Assembly: GCF_000430705.1 (NCBI RefSeq) | Contig: NZ_AUMN01000001.1 | Span: 124,001-188,000 of the forward strand | Length of the DNA stretch: 64,000 nt | Direction of reading: 5' to 3' | Source of the DNA: Arthrobacter castelli DSM 16402 | GTDB taxonomy: Bacteria > Actinomycetota > Actinomycetes > Actinomycetales > Micrococcaceae | In this document: in pieces, positions 4,033 to 50,595 of the stretch | Layout: each line of letters opens with the position of its first letter | Numbering within the stretch: the stretch's first letter is position 1 | Translations under genes and position numbers: made by a program | The notes under the pieces: model-generated | What the model saw: the letters and a program-made list of their open reading frames with translations, nothing else | Database searches by the model: none | Told to the model about the DNA's origin: nothing

Positions 4033-4311
4033 TCAGGCACTGTCGGGGCGGGTGAGCAACCGGATCTGCGTTCCGGGTCTGACAGCCGCCCGCTCCCAGG
4101 CCTGCTCAAGTTGCGGGCTTTGGATATACCGCCGGGCCCGGTCGAGGTCTTCGAACTCGAACAGGATGACCAGTTCGTTGGGATCCGCCGAACCCTGCAG
4201 CACGAGAGCGCTGACGCAGCCCGCTTCCGCCCGCATCTCAGCGGCACTATCGAACGTCTGCTTCCATTGGTGGTAGTTGTCCGTGGCTTGCTGGACGAGC
4301 ACATACGGCAT
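4033..4311 (-). CDS. Dimeric alpha/beta-barrel (antibiotic monooxygenase/cyclase-like) protein
   Basis: A 92-residue protein starting M-P-Y-V-L-V-Q-Q-A, with the beta-alpha-beta-beta pattern of small ferredoxin-like dimeric barrel proteins and the F-E-F-E-D-L-D-R-A-R strand-helix junction common in them. The start at 4311 is chosen because its ATG shares one base with the TGA stop of the upstream monooxygenase (TGATG), a coupled arrangement; a longer reading to 4350 would overlap that gene. Pairing with a FAD monooxygenase suggests that it acts on or protects the same substrate, or serves as an accessory cyclase or monooxygenase (inference). Confidence 0.7.
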   Translation of the reverse strand: MPYVLVQQATDNYHQWKQTFDSAAEMRAEAGCVSALVLQGSADPNELVILFEFEDLDRARRYIQSPQLEQAWERAAVRPGTQIRLLTRPDSA

Positions 4312-5816
4312 CAGTAACGTTCCTGGCTTCCTTGATGGTTCCCGTCCCAATGGGCGAGTGCTTCATGCACGCCGACCTCCAACGCACGCGGATCGGCCTC
4401 ATTACTGGCCCACGCCACATACCCATCCGGACGCACCAGCACGGCGTTGGCAGGAACGGTGTCTTCAACCGTCACTGAGATGACACGGTCGCGCCAGAAT
4501 TCGGGTAATCCGGGCAGGCGATGGTGGCTGAGGAGCACGAACTTCCCCGGGCGCAGTGCCTCATACAGACGGCGTGGCCCCTGTCCGGACTGCACCAACG
4601 GCAGATCGGGTGCCCGGTGGCCGACGAGCCGATGTTCACCGGCAGCTGCCGGGTAGGAGATGGCGATGCCGGACACGGCCGCCGCTGCTTGCGGCTGGAC
4701 CAATCCGAGTCGTCCGGCAGTGCCTTTCAGCAGCGTGCGGAGCAGCCGGCTGGCCCAGGAGCGGGCGAGTGCGAGACGAAGTAACAGGCCGCTGCCGCGC
4801 AGAACGGCCCGGCCCACCGGATGCCGCTCTGACTGATAACTATCCAGCAGGGCTTCCGGCCCCCGCCCGTGCACCGCGGCGGCGAGCTTCCAACCAAGAT
4901 TAGCGGCGTCCTGCATGCCGGTATTCATTCCCTGTCCGCCTGCGGGAGAGTGCACATGCGCGGCGTCACCGGCCAGGAGCACTCGCCCCTGCCGGTAACT
5001 GGTGACCTGGCGTTCGTCGCTGTGGAAGCGGGACATCCAGCGCGCTTCGTGCATCCCGTAGTCGGTCCCAAGGACCGACTTGACGATGTGCTGGATTTCG
5101 TCGAGGTCAACCGGTGAAGTGTCGGGCAACTGCCGGCGCCTGTTCCAGGCAATGACCCGGTACCAGCCATCGCCGAACGGTGCCAGGAAAGCGAATCCGT
5201 CACCGGCGGCGTCGACGGTCAACACCTCTGCAGGCTGTGTGCGCAGGCGGACATCGGCGAGAATGACTGACTGTACTGCCGATTTTCCGGGAAACGAGAG
5301 GTTCATCGCCTTCCGCACCGTACTGCCGACACCGTCGGCGCCGACGACGTATGCTGCCCGGCGGGCAGAGCGGTCACCATCATTGCCGCGGATGTCGACC
5401 TCGACGCCGTCGGCGTCCTGATGTAAACCGACGACGTCCGCATTGGACACTATTTCGACGCCAAGCTGTTGCGCCCGGGCTGCGAGCACCCGCTCGGTGT
5501 TGTACTGCGGCGTCACCAACACGTAGGGATACCGGGTGGTCAGCCGTGACAGGTCAATCTCGAGCCGGCCGAAGAGGCGCAGTCCGCCCACCTGGGCGCC
5601 GGTGGCGGCCAGGTCATCACCGACGCCGCGGGCGTCCAGTATCTCCAGCGTGCGGGCGTGAACGGCGAACGCCCGGGTGAGATTCGATTCCTCCCCGCGG
5701 CGTTCGAGAACCTGGCAGGACACACCTGCCCGGGCAAGATCACCGGCCAGCAGCAATCCTGTAGGTCCGGCGCCCACGATGATCACATCGGCGTCGCTAC
5801 CCGTCTGTTGCTCCAT
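4311..5816 (-). CDS. FAD-dependent aromatic monooxygenase (PheA/TfdB family)
   Basis: A 501-residue flavoprotein hydroxylase. It has an N-terminal Rossmann dinucleotide-binding motif (VIIVGAGPTGLLLAG, from residue 11) and the second FAD motif G-D-A-A-H-V-H-S-P at about 283, followed by G-Q-G-M-N-T-G-M-Q-D-A. The C-terminal thioredoxin-like domain typical of phenol and polyketide hydroxylases is present but short. Such enzymes use NAD(P)H and O2 to hydroxylate aromatic rings; the substrate is unknown. The ATG at 5816 is preceded by GGAGGTATTGCA on the minus strand, a good ribosome site. It is translationally coupled to the small barrel protein downstream. Confidence 0.88.
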   Translation of the reverse strand: MEQQTGSDADVIIVGAGPTGLLLAGDLARAGVSCQVLERRGEESNLTRAFAVHARTLEILDARGVGDDLAATGAQVGGLRLFGRLEIDLSRLTTRYPYVLVTPQYNTERVLAARAQQLGVEIVSNADVVGLHQDADGVEVDIRGNDGDRSARRAAYVVGADGVGSTVRKAMNLSFPGKSAVQSVILADVRLRTQPAEVLTVDAAGDGFAFLAPFGDGWYRVIAWNRRRQLPDTSPVDLDEIQHIVKSVLGTDYGMHEARWMSRFHSDERQVTSYRQGRVLLAGDAAHVHSPAGGQGMNTGMQDAANLGWKLAAAVHGRGPEALLDSYQSERHPVGRAVLRGSGLLLRLALARSWASRLLRTLLKGTAGRLGLVQPQAAAAVSGIAISYPAAAGEHRLVGHRAPDLPLVQSGQGPRRLYEALRPGKFVLLSHHRLPGLPEFWRDRVISVTVEDTVPANAVLVRPDGYVAWASNEADPRALEVGVHEALAHWDGNHQGSQERY

Positions 5817-32861: not shown

Positions 32862-32882
32862 GGTGGTCGAGCTTGCGAGACC
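32862..32882. repeat. Short copy of the GGTGGTCGAG/GAGACC palindromic repeat
   Basis: GGTGGTCGAG, then CTTG, then CGAGACC between nucS and nagA. The ends match those of the larger palindromes at 49490-49526 and 49932-49968, with a minimal centre. It belongs to the same dispersed family. Confidence 0.6.
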
Positions 32883-47383: not shown

Positions 47384-47688
47384 CCGGTCCGTGGTCGGTC
47401 TTTAGCCGTCAGCCTTGGGCGCGGGCCCGCAGCGCCACCCGCAGGTGCTTGGACCGCAGGTGCCGGCCCGCGCGTGCGTCACCGCGTTTTGTAGCTGCCG
47501 CACAAGCCCGCCGCACAGCGGCAAGCCCGCGTGAAGCCGTGCTCGCTGCGGCGGTCATGATGAGCAACACAGGAGTATTTTTTGCCGTTTGGACGATCGC
47601 GTCTGTCCGCAGTGCCGATGACAGTAGCCGGAACCCGGATCTGCGCGCCGTACCGGCAGACCGGAAGAGCAGGAATGGGGGCACGATC
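47384..47688. other. Gene-free stretch of 305 bp
   Basis: It lies between DUF3039 and the helicase. The helicase frame is open through part of it (from 47449), but that part encodes an Arg/Ala-rich sequence without homology. It presumably holds the helicase promoter; I see no clear -35/-10. Confidence 0.5.
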
Positions 47689-49455
47689 GTGAACGACACA
47701 TTGTTCAGCGCCGGCTCCTCCATGCCTCCGGCGTACCCGGACCGGGCCGCCTGGGGCACCGCTCAAAAGCTGCGTGCCTGGCAGGCCGAGGCGCTGGAGC
47801 AGTACTTCCAAGCCGCCCCCCGGGACTTCCTGGCGGTGGCGACGCCCGGATCCGGCAAGACAACTTTCGCCCTGCGTGCCGCCGCCGAACTCATCGAACG
47901 CGGAACCGTCAACCGTGTCACCGTTGTCACGCCCACCGACCACCTGAAGCAGCAGTGGGCCGACGCGGCGGCACGGATCGGCATCGCCATCGATCCGAAC
48001 TTCAAGAATGCCGACGGGCGGCACGGCCAAGGCTTTATCGGCGTCGCCGTGACCTACGCCCAGGTGGCCAACAAACCGATGCTGCACCGGGCCAAGACCG
48101 AGGCCGCCAAGACCCTGGTCATCCTCGACGAAATCCACCATGGCGGCGACGCGCTGTCTTGGGGCGATGGCATCGCCGAGGCCTTCGACCCGGCCGCCCG
48201 GCGGCTGGCACTGACCGGTACGCCCTTCCGCTCCGACACGGCTGCCATCCCGTTCGTGGAGTATGTCGAGGATTCCGACGGCATCCGGCGTTCCCGCGCG
48301 GATTACACCTACGGCTACGGCGAGGCGTTGAAGGACCATGTGGTCCGGCCCGTCATCTTCATGGCCTACTCAGGGGAGATGCGGTGGCGCACCAGCGCCG
48401 GCGATGAAATCGCCGCGAATCTGGGCGGGGCAGCCACCAAGGACATCACCGCCCAGGCATGGCGGACTGCGCTCAACCCGCAGGGCGAATGGATTCCCTC
48501 GGTGCTGGCCGCAGCGGACCGGAGGCTCACCGAGGTGCGCCACACGGTGCCCGACGCCGGTGCTCTGGTGATTGCCACCGATCACGAGGATGCCCGTGCC
48601 TACGCTGGACAGCTGAAGAAGATCACCGGCGAATCCCCCACGGTGATCCTGTCCGACGATCCGAAGGCATCATCCAGGATTGAAAAGTTCTCCGACGGTG
48701 AGAGCCGTTGGATGATCGCCGTGCGGATGGTCTCCGAAGGGGTCGACGTGCCGCGGCTGGCCGTCGGCGTGTACGCCACCTCCACCTCCACGCCGTTGTT
48801 CTTCGCCCAGGCCGTGGGCCGCTTCGTCCGTGCCCGCAAGCGGGGGGAGACGGCGTCGATATTCCTGCCGTCCGTGCCGATCCTGATGGAACTGGCGAAC
48901 CAGCTGGAACTGGAGCGCGACCATGCGCTGGACCGGCCGCAGTCCGACGAAGAGGAAGCGTTCTCCGAGGAAGACGAGGAGATGCTGGCGGCCAACCGGG
49001 AGGAGAAGGCCTCCGACGAGCTGTCCCGTACTCCGTTCGAGGCATTGGAATCCCAGGCGTCCTTCGACCGAGTGCTGTACGACGGCGGCGAGTTCGGTGC
49101 CGGGGGAGACCTCGGCAGCGAGGACGAGCTCGACTTCCTGGGGATCCCGGGACTGCTTGACGCCGAGCAGGTGGGGACCCTGCTGCGGCAGCGCCAAGCC
49201 GAGCAACAGTCGCGCCGGAGCAAGCCCGCCCAGGAAACGGAAACTCAGGTACCCGACCATCGGCAGTTGAAGGATTTGCGTAACGAACTGGCGCGCAATG
49301 TCTCGGCGTGGTCGGCACGTTCGGGCACGCCGCACGGGGTGGTGCACAGTGAGTTGCGTCGGATCTGCGGCGGACCTCCCGTGGCGCAGGCCGATGAGGA
49401 GCAGTTGACCCAGCGTCTGAAGAAACTGCAGAACTGGTTCGTCGGCCGGAAATAG
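47689..49455 (+). CDS. DEAD/DEAH box superfamily 2 helicase
   Basis: A 588-residue helicase. Motif I is A51-T-P-G-S-G-K-T58, motif II is D-E-I-H (147-150), motif III is L-T-G-T-P-F, and motif VI is Q-A-V-G-R-F-V-R-A. The C-terminal third has an acidic segment (S-E-E-D-E-E) and a Gln/Arg-rich tail. It is the family encoded next to DUF3039 in actinobacteria, probably a DNA or RNA translocase of unknown pathway. GTG 47689 follows AGGAATGGGGG, giving an N-terminus that begins directly before the helicase fold. Confidence 0.9.
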   Translation: MNDTLFSAGSSMPPAYPDRAAWGTAQKLRAWQAEALEQYFQAAPRDFLAVATPGSGKTTFALRAAAELIERGTVNRVTVVTPTDHLKQQWADAAARIGIAIDPNFKNADGRHGQGFIGVAVTYAQVANKPMLHRAKTEAAKTLVILDEIHHGGDALSWGDGIAEAFDPAARRLALTGTPFRSDTAAIPFVEYVEDSDGIRRSRADYTYGYGEALKDHVVRPVIFMAYSGEMRWRTSAGDEIAANLGGAATKDITAQAWRTALNPQGEWIPSVLAAADRRLTEVRHTVPDAGALVIATDHEDARAYAGQLKKITGESPTVILSDDPKASSRIEKFSDGESRWMIAVRMVSEGVDVPRLAVGVYATSTSTPLFFAQAVGRFVRARKRGETASIFLPSVPILMELANQLELERDHALDRPQSDEEEAFSEEDEEMLAANREEKASDELSRTPFEALESQASFDRVLYDGGEFGAGGDLGSEDELDFLGIPGLLDAEQVGTLLRQRQAEQQSRRSKPAQETETQVPDHRQLKDLRNELARNVSAWSARSGTPHGVVHSELRRICGGPPVAQADEEQLTQRLKKLQNWFVGRK

Positions 49456-49458
49456 CTC

Positions 49459-49540
49459 GGTGGTCGAGTAAGGCGCGCAGCAACACCCCGGTGGTCGAGT
49501 AAGGCGCGCAGCGCCGCACCGAGACCCCGCACCGAGACCG
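49459..49540 (+). repeat. Palindromic repeat cluster left of the GIY-YIG gene
   Basis: Two direct copies of GGTGGTCGAGTAAGGCGCG plus CAGC (49459-49481 and 49490-49512). The second extends into a full palindrome that ends CCGCACCGAGACC (to 49526). A second CACCGAGACC follows at 49530-49539. The internal arms are GGCGC/GCGCC, so it folds as a hairpin. The mirror copy is at 49932-49968. Confidence 0.85.
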
Positions 49541-49624
49541 CGACTTATCCACAATTGCGCCAGGCACCATTTACCCACTGGTCCGCTTCGGAGAACCTTC
49601 GTTCAAGAGATAACGGAGGGCGCC

Positions 49625-49903
49625 ATGCCGCATATGTACATCCTCGAATGTGGAGACAGCAGCTTCTACGTGGGAAGCACGTGGGATATCGAACGTAGAT
49701 TGGCCCAGCACCAAGCGGGGGCAGGCGCCCGCTATACAGCCAGGCGTCTGCCGGTAAAGCTGGTCTATTGCGAGGAATTCACCCGAATCAGGGATGCCTT
49801 CGTGCGGGAGAAGCAGGTGCAGAACTGGAGCAGAGCGAAACGGCAGACTCTGATCGGTGGACGTCCAGACGCGATCCGCAGCAACATGAAACGGGCACAG
49901 TAG
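49625..49903 (+). CDS. Small GIY-YIG nuclease-domain protein
   Basis: A 92-residue stand-alone GIY-YIG domain of the UvrC/YhbQ superfamily. The Y-I-L (5-7) and Y-V-G-S-T (15-19) pair is present. Conserved arginines 24-25 (I-E-R-R-L-A-Q-H), the R-E-K-Q-V-Q-N-W motif with catalytic Glu62, and the S-R-A-K-R-Q-T-L-I helix complete the fold. There is no fused DNA-binding domain. The gene starts about 85 bp after one palindromic repeat cluster, and its stop is followed at once by the inverted copy. That suggests a link between the protein and the repeats. Confidence 0.9.
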   Translation: MPHMYILECGDSSFYVGSTWDIERRLAQHQAGAGARYTARRLPVKLVYCEEFTRIRDAFVREKQVQNWSRAKRQTLIGGRPDAIRSNMKRAQ

Positions 49904-49968
49904 CGGTCTCGATGGCGGGGTCTCGATGCCGGGTCTCGGTGCGGCGCTTCGCGCCTTACTCGACCACC
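49904..49968 (-). repeat. Inverted palindromic repeat right of the GIY-YIG gene
   Basis: GGTCTCGGTGCGGCG through TTACTCGACCACC at 49932-49968 is the reverse complement of the left copy (49490-49526), with 36 of 37 matching bases; the one difference is in the loop. Two degenerate GGTCTCGATG units (49905 and 49919) precede it, mirroring the extra unit on the left. Confidence 0.85.
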
Positions 49969-49977
49969 GGGTTGGGG

Positions 49978-50595
49978 CTATTTCAGGTCGACGCCGGCCG
50001 ACTCCATGTCTTCGAGCGCCCGGTCCGTGGTGTCCGGTGAAACTCCGGCGGTGAGGCCGACCAGCACCGCGGTGGCGTAGCCGGCCTGCACTGCGTCGAG
50101 GACCGTGGCCTTCACACAATAGTCGGTGGCGATGCCCGCGATCTCGACCTCATCGACTTCGTTCTGCCGCAGCCAGTCGTCGAGGCTTATCTTCTCGTCG
50201 TCATCCGGCACTTCCTCGGTGGGCTCCCGGTCGCCGGTGGGCACCACCACATCGGGGGCAGCGACGCCGTCGAACCCCGAATACCCCGAGTCGTACTGAC
50301 CCTTGCGGAAGAAGGCGTCCACTTGCTCGGTGTCGAACCCCGGGTGGGGTTGTGCCCCCTCGGTTCCGGCGACGCAGTGCACCGGCCAGCTGTCCACAAA
50401 ATCCGGCGTCTGAGAGAAATGTGAACCCGGGTCGATGTGCCAGTCCTGTGTGGCGACGATGAAGTCGTACCGGTCGAAATTCTGCTCAATGAAATCGCTG
50501 ATTGCGGCGGCGGTGTCGGCTCCGCCATCGGTGGCGAGAGAGCCGCCCTCGCAGAAGTCGTTCTGCACGTCGACAATGATCAGTGCGCGCGTCAT
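49978..50595 (-). CDS. pncA: Nicotinamidase / isochorismatase family
   Basis: A 205-residue amidase turning nicotinamide into nicotinic acid for NAD salvage. The catalytic triad is visible as D9 (V-D-V-Q-N-D-F), K98 (F-R-K-G-Q) and C160 (A-T-D-Y-C-V). Metal ligands are D51-W-H53. An acidic insertion of about 20 residues (118-138, GDREPTEEVPDDDEK) lies between the lysine and the cysteine and is not in the compact form of the enzyme. The next gene in the NAD salvage pathway, pncB, lies 2 bp upstream on the same strand. Confidence 0.94.
   Translation of the reverse strand: MTRALIIVDVQNDFCEGGSLATDGGADTAAAISDFIEQNFDRYDFIVATQDWHIDPGSHFSQTPDFVDSWPVHCVAGTEGAQPHPGFDTEQVDAFFRKGQYDSGYSGFDGVAAPDVVVPTGDREPTEEVPDDDEKISLDDWLRQNEVDEVEIAGIATDYCVKATVLDAVQAGYATAVLVGLTAGVSPDTTDRALEDMESAGVDLK

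Follow-up and report, generated by a model that had tools for sequence, protein, structure and literature searches.

The stand-alone GIY-YIG nuclease gene of the window (the whole stretch of 64,000 nucleotides analysed here) lies between inverted copies of a short palindrome, and hairpins built to the same design flank related genes and are scattered over the genomes concerned. The explanation that we consider probable is that the nuclease is structure-specific and has a palindrome family of its own as its target, making the pair a REP partner system parallel to that of RAYT. From this framing, as read in the genome sequences of very different bacteria, enzyme and repeats look like long-standing partners.

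The nuclease gene and its palindromes in the window

The gene occupies 49625-49903 on the forward strand and encodes 92 amino acids. PF01541, the sole domain detected in a domain search, matches the protein at E = 3.3e-16 with 59.8 bits against a curated cut-off of 22.6, placing it in the GIY-YIG superfamily and bearing out the initial annotation of a stand-alone GIY-YIG domain of 92 residues. A group I intron endonuclease identity was discarded, as the corresponding model scores 14.6 bits against the protein, under its curated cut-off of 56.05. The catalytic residues are conserved: across 58 aligned relatives, Y15, G17, R25, H29, and E62 are invariant, and Y5 is conserved in at least 90% of the rows. 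Searching its own genome with the protein returned a single full match; a second match (E 0.05, two stops) was rejected as a copy, and the gene is present once. The predicted structure (pLDDT 89.5) is closest among solved folds to UPF0213 (YazA/YhbQ; 1zg2, E 6.3e-6; 1ywl), followed, past the usual threshold, by SLX1 (6seh, E 0.012; 7cq3) and I-TevI (E 0.46), and the sequence search agrees on UPF0213 and SLX1 as the nearest solved relatives. SLX1, a nuclease acting on branched DNA, is larger and works with SLX4, and B. subtilis yazA (plasmid record L189) differs from the window gene in having no flanking hairpin by a generic test.

The left neighbour is a helicase-like gene (ResIII/DEAD) at 47449-49455 on the forward strand, counted from its predicted start, and the right neighbour is an isochorismatase-like gene at 49978-50595 on the reverse strand, with its stop at 49978; both were identified by open reading frame and domain match. 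A 19-nt direct repeat, 84% alike, occurs in the 3′ end of the helicase gene (49419-49437) and in the GIY-YIG gene (49810-49828), probably by chance.

Between these neighbours, the two palindromes stand in opposite orientation, the left one at 49490-49526 on the forward strand and the right one at 49932-49968 on the reverse strand. Both are 37 bp long and of a GA-hairpin type (GGTC-GA-G ... C-GA-GACC), and alignment confirms that 36 of 37 bases are equal after reverse complementation, as had been noticed in the initial annotation. Their extended arms (49479-49542 and 49916-49979) are 64 nt long and 89% complementary. The right palindrome starts 29 bases after the last base of the GIY-YIG stop codon, within the 30 bp first given. 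The word palindrome stands as far as inverted pairing is concerned but does not hold for perfect pairing, since the stem is imperfect and contains a GA/GA mismatch. The extra partial units in mirror order that had been described on both sides were also located: on the left, a 5′-half repeat at 49451-49481, of which 49459-49481 (forward) forms a direct repeat with 49490-49512, and a second copy of the 3′ half at 49527-49539 (forward; direct repeat of 49514-49526), and on the right, mirroring these, two partial 3′-half units at 49905-49918 and 49919-49932 (reverse), seen as direct and inverted repeats. A short palindrome of this type (GGTC-GAG-CTTG-CGA-GACC) that stands by itself, first placed at 32862-32882, is real and lies at 32865-32882 on the forward strand.

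The predicted single-strand folding energies are unremarkable, with z-scores of -1.18 and -1.25 for the left and right palindromes and +0.41 for the short element, and with such ordinary values a strong hairpin by standard DNA energies is unsupported. The palindrome does recur: the whole-genome scan that the initial annotation had proposed found its core, with up to three mismatches, at 13 places in its own genome and a reversed-pattern control at none, while a looser pattern gave 18 + 12 matches, overlaps included, against 1 + 1 for the control. Plain inverted repeats that span the gene, with a score of at least 15, were found at 43 of the 90 related loci described below but at only 1 of 418 displaced control pairs, which together with the recurrence in its own genome rules out a chance inverted repeat.

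GA hairpins beside related genes and across genomes

Relatives of the gene were fetched from genome contigs by protein sequence alone; the best 80 of the 87 found, together with 10 Micrococcaceae loci, make up 90 loci, among which L016 and L096 are the same gene. The record titles of the relatives name actinobacteria, Anaerolineae and other Chloroflexi, cyanobacteria, Bacteroidota, Rickettsiales, Fibrobacteres, and others. Under a general hairpin rule (a stem of at least 4 bp, GA, an inner pair, a loop, the paired base, GA, and the stem), 88 of the 90 loci have a hairpin beside the gene on at least one side and 73 on both sides, counts in which, as in that of the spanning inverted repeats above, the five minus-strand loci L096 and L101-L104 were left unturned and therefore have their up- and downstream sides or gene ends wrong; the same rule finds no hairpin beside the gene at L091 and L092. 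Hairpin density is 7.7 per kb near the genes (479 in 62,276 bases) versus 0.98 per kb far from them (317 in 324,831 bases), a far rate indicating that some matches are due to chance, as the rule allows 4-bp stems. The layout suggested in the initial annotation, that of REP sequences with a GIY-YIG nuclease replacing the RAYT transposase, is thus strongly supported, and genes of this type are repeatedly flanked by such repeats.

Other GIY-YIG genes are mostly bare. Among 11 other stand-alone paralogues detected with PF01541 in 13 other genomes, 8 lack such a hairpin and the remaining 3 show a single weak match apiece, and all 4 UvrC-like genes in the same genomes are without one. Six hairpins stand beside the second window-type copy of Microbacterium sp. 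SS28 (L169); three further candidate copies of the window's subfamily, L155, L166, and L170, turned out to be the same places as L049, L077, and L052, leaving only L169 as an extra copy.

The hairpins share a design, as counted at 89 loci (L096 left out, also for the tag counts below). When stems of at least 5 bp are followed by any 2 × 2 mismatch, GA/GA, which is TC/TC on the other strand, is found 174 times near the genes (1413 per Mb) versus 88 times (136 per Mb) in the far set, which has five times as many bases, and the next commonest kind of mismatch near genes is counted 21 times. In the 146 hairpins with stems of at least 5 bp, from 66 of the 89 loci, the base outside GA is a pyrimidine (forming a pyrimidine:purine pair) in 145 and the inner base after GA is a purine in 144. 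At the other stem positions the letters vary but remain paired, and GA/GA is constant; pairing of the stem was a condition of the search for these hairpins, whereas the letters were not. The setting 5′-pyrimidine-GA-purine-3′ is that in which tandem sheared G·A pairs are most stable in DNA. By number of loci, the outer stems are GGTC (28), GGTT (10), CCCT (6), GGCT (4), and others. Of 266 near hairpins, 133 have a 5′ tag, CGNT, ahead of the stem; for stems other than GGTC, GGTT, and GATC, the counts are 32 of 120 near versus 13 of 100 far hairpins, which is only suggestive of a tag that belongs to the hairpin design.

In two actinobacterial families, genomes with the gene tend to have more palindromes, although exceptions exist. 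In the Micrococcaceae, the gene is present in 10 of 245 genomes and in 6 of 32 genera. Within one genus (g24), the four genomes with the gene have 53, 174, 28, and 45 palindromes versus 0-11 in the eleven without it (p = 7e-4, kinship ignored); a second genus (g1) has 30 with the gene versus 4 without, and a third (g28) 107 versus 1, 2, 3, and 5. This first pattern is noisy over the family, reaching 32 in G224, a genome without the gene, and 4 of the 10 gene-bearing genomes, G007, G103, G134, and G163, are unremarkable by it, with 3, 17, 18, and 8 palindromes, the count for G007 leaving out palindromes with a GATC stem. G103, G134, and G163 have GGTT-type hairpins at the gene, and with a GGTT pattern at least 9 palindromes are found in 8 of the 10 Micrococcaceae with the gene versus 6 of the 235 without (p = 4.5e-10, kinship ignored), G000 and G007 having none of this type. 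The gene is present in 59 of 249 Microbacteriaceae genomes, in up to three copies each, and a two-stem pattern occurs at least 9 times in 20 of these 59 versus 8 of the 190 without the gene (p = 1.3e-8, kinship ignored); the other 39 gene-bearing genomes have fewer than 9 palindromes of the one pattern used. Palindrome-rich genomes in which no gene was detected exist in both families: G480 (107), G346 (88), G418 (34), and G557 (23) among Microbacteriaceae, and G009 (34), G122 (18), and G216 (18) among Micrococcaceae. These genomes could have lost the gene, or their gene could be too diverged or unassembled.

A second GIY-YIG clade and comparison with known systems

Hairpins of another class accompany a second group of GIY-YIG genes. 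Of the alphaproteobacterial plasmid genes, 15 of 46 matching records were examined: those of Shinella, Sinorhizobium meliloti, and Novosphingobium sit between perfect hairpins of the CGTC kind, and most of the other 12 do not. Genes between tagged repeats were also found in Rhizobium CIAT894, Azospirillum lipoferum, and a further S. meliloti locus, and the gonococcal homologue (L227) is flanked on either side by CGTCATTCCCGC..GCGGGAATC repeats. In an order of MAGs centred on G264, such a gene is present in 27 of 55 genomes, in up to five copies. Among 30 loci fetched from this order, 23 have a perfect-stem hairpin next to the gene, 14 of them on both sides, at a density of 2.52 per kb near versus 0.39 far; some of these hairpins are rich in AT and are probably terminators. 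GTC-tagged hairpins occur at 15 of the 30 loci, and the tag points outward in 26 of 36. Among the roughly 135 scored candidates listed for a covariance model, the median element count is 34 in genomes of this order with the gene and 0 in those without, and at least 5 elements occur in 23 of 27 versus 7 of 28 genomes, kinship being ignored; the model was built from perfect-stem hairpins beside genes of the very genomes searched, so its pairing is 100% by construction and its counts lean to gene-bearing genomes.

In a tree of 59 proteins, built from few columns, the two REP-bearing groups separate, with support of 98/90 for clade W, which contains the window protein, and 93/95 for clade C, which contains the gonococcal homologue. 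Bridging forms exist: a (C/T)GTC tag is combined with a GA/GA stem in the hairpins of a Planktothrix locus (L195) placed next to clade C, where the tag is GTC, and in those of L210 and L217, two loci of clade C that add to the 15 above. The Planktothrix locus had passed for bare in the perfect-stem test until the GA test found its hairpins. Its gene, on a plasmid, lies between genes annotated as an MmeI-like restriction enzyme and DISARM drmA. These two clades, tied to GA/GA and to CGTC hairpins, respectively, may represent a second REP system that extends through the bacteria, is independent of RAYT, and has pyrimidine-GA/GA-purine as its recognition mark, a reading that is about as likely as not. 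An enzyme that reads the tandem sheared G·A structure and no fixed sequence would, on that reading, allow stems to drift while the partnership persists.

The window locus resembles the REP/RAYT arrangement (REPtrons, in which GTAG REPs accompany TnpA-REP) in its short imperfect palindromes scattered over the genome, in one gene or a few genes with inverted copies of a recurring palindrome at either side, and in a gene that is patchy but long kept. It differs in the enzyme, which is a GIY-YIG protein with PF01541 only and not an HUH tyrosine transposase. An ordinary insertion sequence is improbable, as the protein has a GIY-YIG domain only and no target duplication was noticed at sites that are too diverged for exact ends. 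CGTC REPs share with the present system the GIY-YIG genes of clade C that lie between them; the window palindromes differ in being preceded by CGGT and not by the (C/T)GTC tag of CGTC REPs, although the weaker 5′ tag CGNT is possible. Di Nocera and others (2013, PMC3733652) describe CGTC REPs as having no dedicated transposase. The preferred explanation would offer an enzyme for palindromic repeat families to which none had been assigned, CGTC REPs among them (PMC3733652). For the GA-hairpin repeats of actinobacteria, Chloroflexi, Bacteroidota, and others, no partner is named in the literature that we reached, and a search covering few subscription papers or preprints brought up nothing that we recognised as joining GIY-YIG genes to such repeats.

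Chenal, Veyrier and others reportedly described, in Nature Communications in 2025, Ssn GIY-YIG nucleases that cut single-stranded DNA at a repeat; this repeat (NTS) is said to occur in hundreds of copies in Neisseria, and many homologues are said to have sites of their own. The window locus is like Ssn/NTS in its small GIY-YIG protein, its genome-wide palindromic repeats, and the repeats adjoining the gene, and it shows a mark reported for Ssn, a genome-wide cognate repeat that is also found beside the gene. If that description holds, the kind of system is already known. The window protein differs in belonging to clade W, whereas the Neisseria and alphaproteobacterial proteins belong to clade C, although the Ssn family may be defined more widely, and the window hairpins differ in having GA/GA in the stem and no CGTC tag. 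Clade W, the GA/GA hairpins, and the link between clade C and CGTC REPs may be covered by the 2025 study.

A possible mechanism and its alternatives

Under the explanation that we favour, the palindrome would be recognised by the enzyme in its folded, hairpin form, probably within single-stranded DNA, which could be the lagging strand, incoming DNA, or an extruded cruciform. Recognition would proceed through the stem with its tandem GA/GA mismatch and be followed by nicking. Repair of the nick by copying or recombination between repeats could, over long times, seed new palindromes, alter how many units surround the gene, and invert the gene cassette that lies between the inverted repeats. With a protein of 92 residues and short oligonucleotides, the origin of REP-like repeats thereby becomes open to direct testing, and the system suggests a minimal GIY-YIG enzyme that recognises DNA shape.

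Flipped cassettes are found in the slot between the helicase and isochorismatase genes. This same slot holds the gene in G000, G007, G095, G181, and G220, which belong to three genera; the gene runs in the direction of the helicase gene in G000 and G181 and opposite to it in G007, G095, and G220, and the palindromes keep their outside-in order in the flipped cassettes (window slot compared with L126, L143, L144, and L145). In G181 (L145, reverse complement of 4150-4950), the GIY and YIG stretches are lost from the gene, the frame continues, and the palindromes remain. The palindromes in the slot of G007 are of another type, with a GATC..GATC stem. This genome, Arthrobacter sp. CAU 1506, also has an unrelated 47-bp inverted repeat outside the palindromes (L126, about 424-470 and about 1070-1120). 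In the sister species G001, some 0.9 kb of different sequence fills the slot, and in nine other relatives that were viewed neither the gene nor such a palindrome is present there. G103 and G134 have the gene in one common slot, different from that of the window. In the family of the window, the gene tends to keep to one slot, where it is flipped or absent, as would be expected of a long-lived partner more than of an active hopper.

The same slot bears on a true transposon-like unit, in which the GIY-YIG enzyme would move palindrome, gene, and palindrome together and leave lone palindromes as remnants. Mirror-image ends, the patchy distribution (10 of 245 Micrococcaceae), and several copies in some genomes (up to three in Microbacteriaceae and up to five in the order of G264) are in its favour, as is a filled site in Shinella HZN7, where gene and repeats stand at a place at which its relatives L233 and L234 have neither. 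We nevertheless consider such a unit unlikely, since a genome often has just a single copy and the slot is conserved across three genera. No target site duplication was noticed, the empty slots of relatives, like the filled and empty Shinella sites, being too diverged for exact ends. Moreover, GIY-YIG enzymes are hydrolytic nickases, for which we know of no joining step.

Less probable still is selfish homing, in which the gene would cut palindromes already present and insert copies of itself by way of homology of the flanking repeats. It would account for a site in Sinorhizobium M103 that has only a repeat doublet (L231, about 1900-2010) where S. meliloti Ak57 has gene and repeats (L226, 2091-2980). 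The left hairpin of this doublet is chimeric, as if a left half had been fused to a right half in mirror image, with the tag at both ends; the doublet may equally be a deletion scar, and excision or recombination is possible. Another pair of loci from the same strains (L187 and L230) was rejected as filled versus empty, as alignment shows the gene in both, with a differing number of repeat doublets before it. In Shinella HZN7 and Ak57, the left repeats come after copies of the gene's own 3′ end (about 1775-1810 in L193 and about 2201-2300 in L226), an order that homing could explain; these copies are remnants of tandem duplication. Against homing, the window slot shows no palindrome where the gene is absent (10 loci viewed), and gene copies are few compared with the many repeats.

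Finally, the gene could be a passenger that merely shares intergenic hot spots with palindromes acting as terminators or attenuators, in keeping with the position of the window palindromes between convergent genes and with palindromes that persist without the gene in some genomes, but this is very improbable in view of the mostly bare stand-alone GIY-YIG genes of the same genomes, the contrast between near and far densities, the link of copy number to the gene, and the separate hairpin class of each of the two GIY-YIG clades.

A DnaA-box-like site, TTATCCACA, lies at 49545-49553 on the forward strand, between the left palindrome and the GIY-YIG gene. Within 200 bp upstream of the genes, TTWTNCACA occurs 12 times in 17.8 kb, versus once in 17.8 kb downstream and 23 times in 366 kb of far sequence. 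The 12 loci with the site (the window, L017, L028, L031, and L097-L104, of 89) are all actinobacterial, and the site may hint at control by replication.
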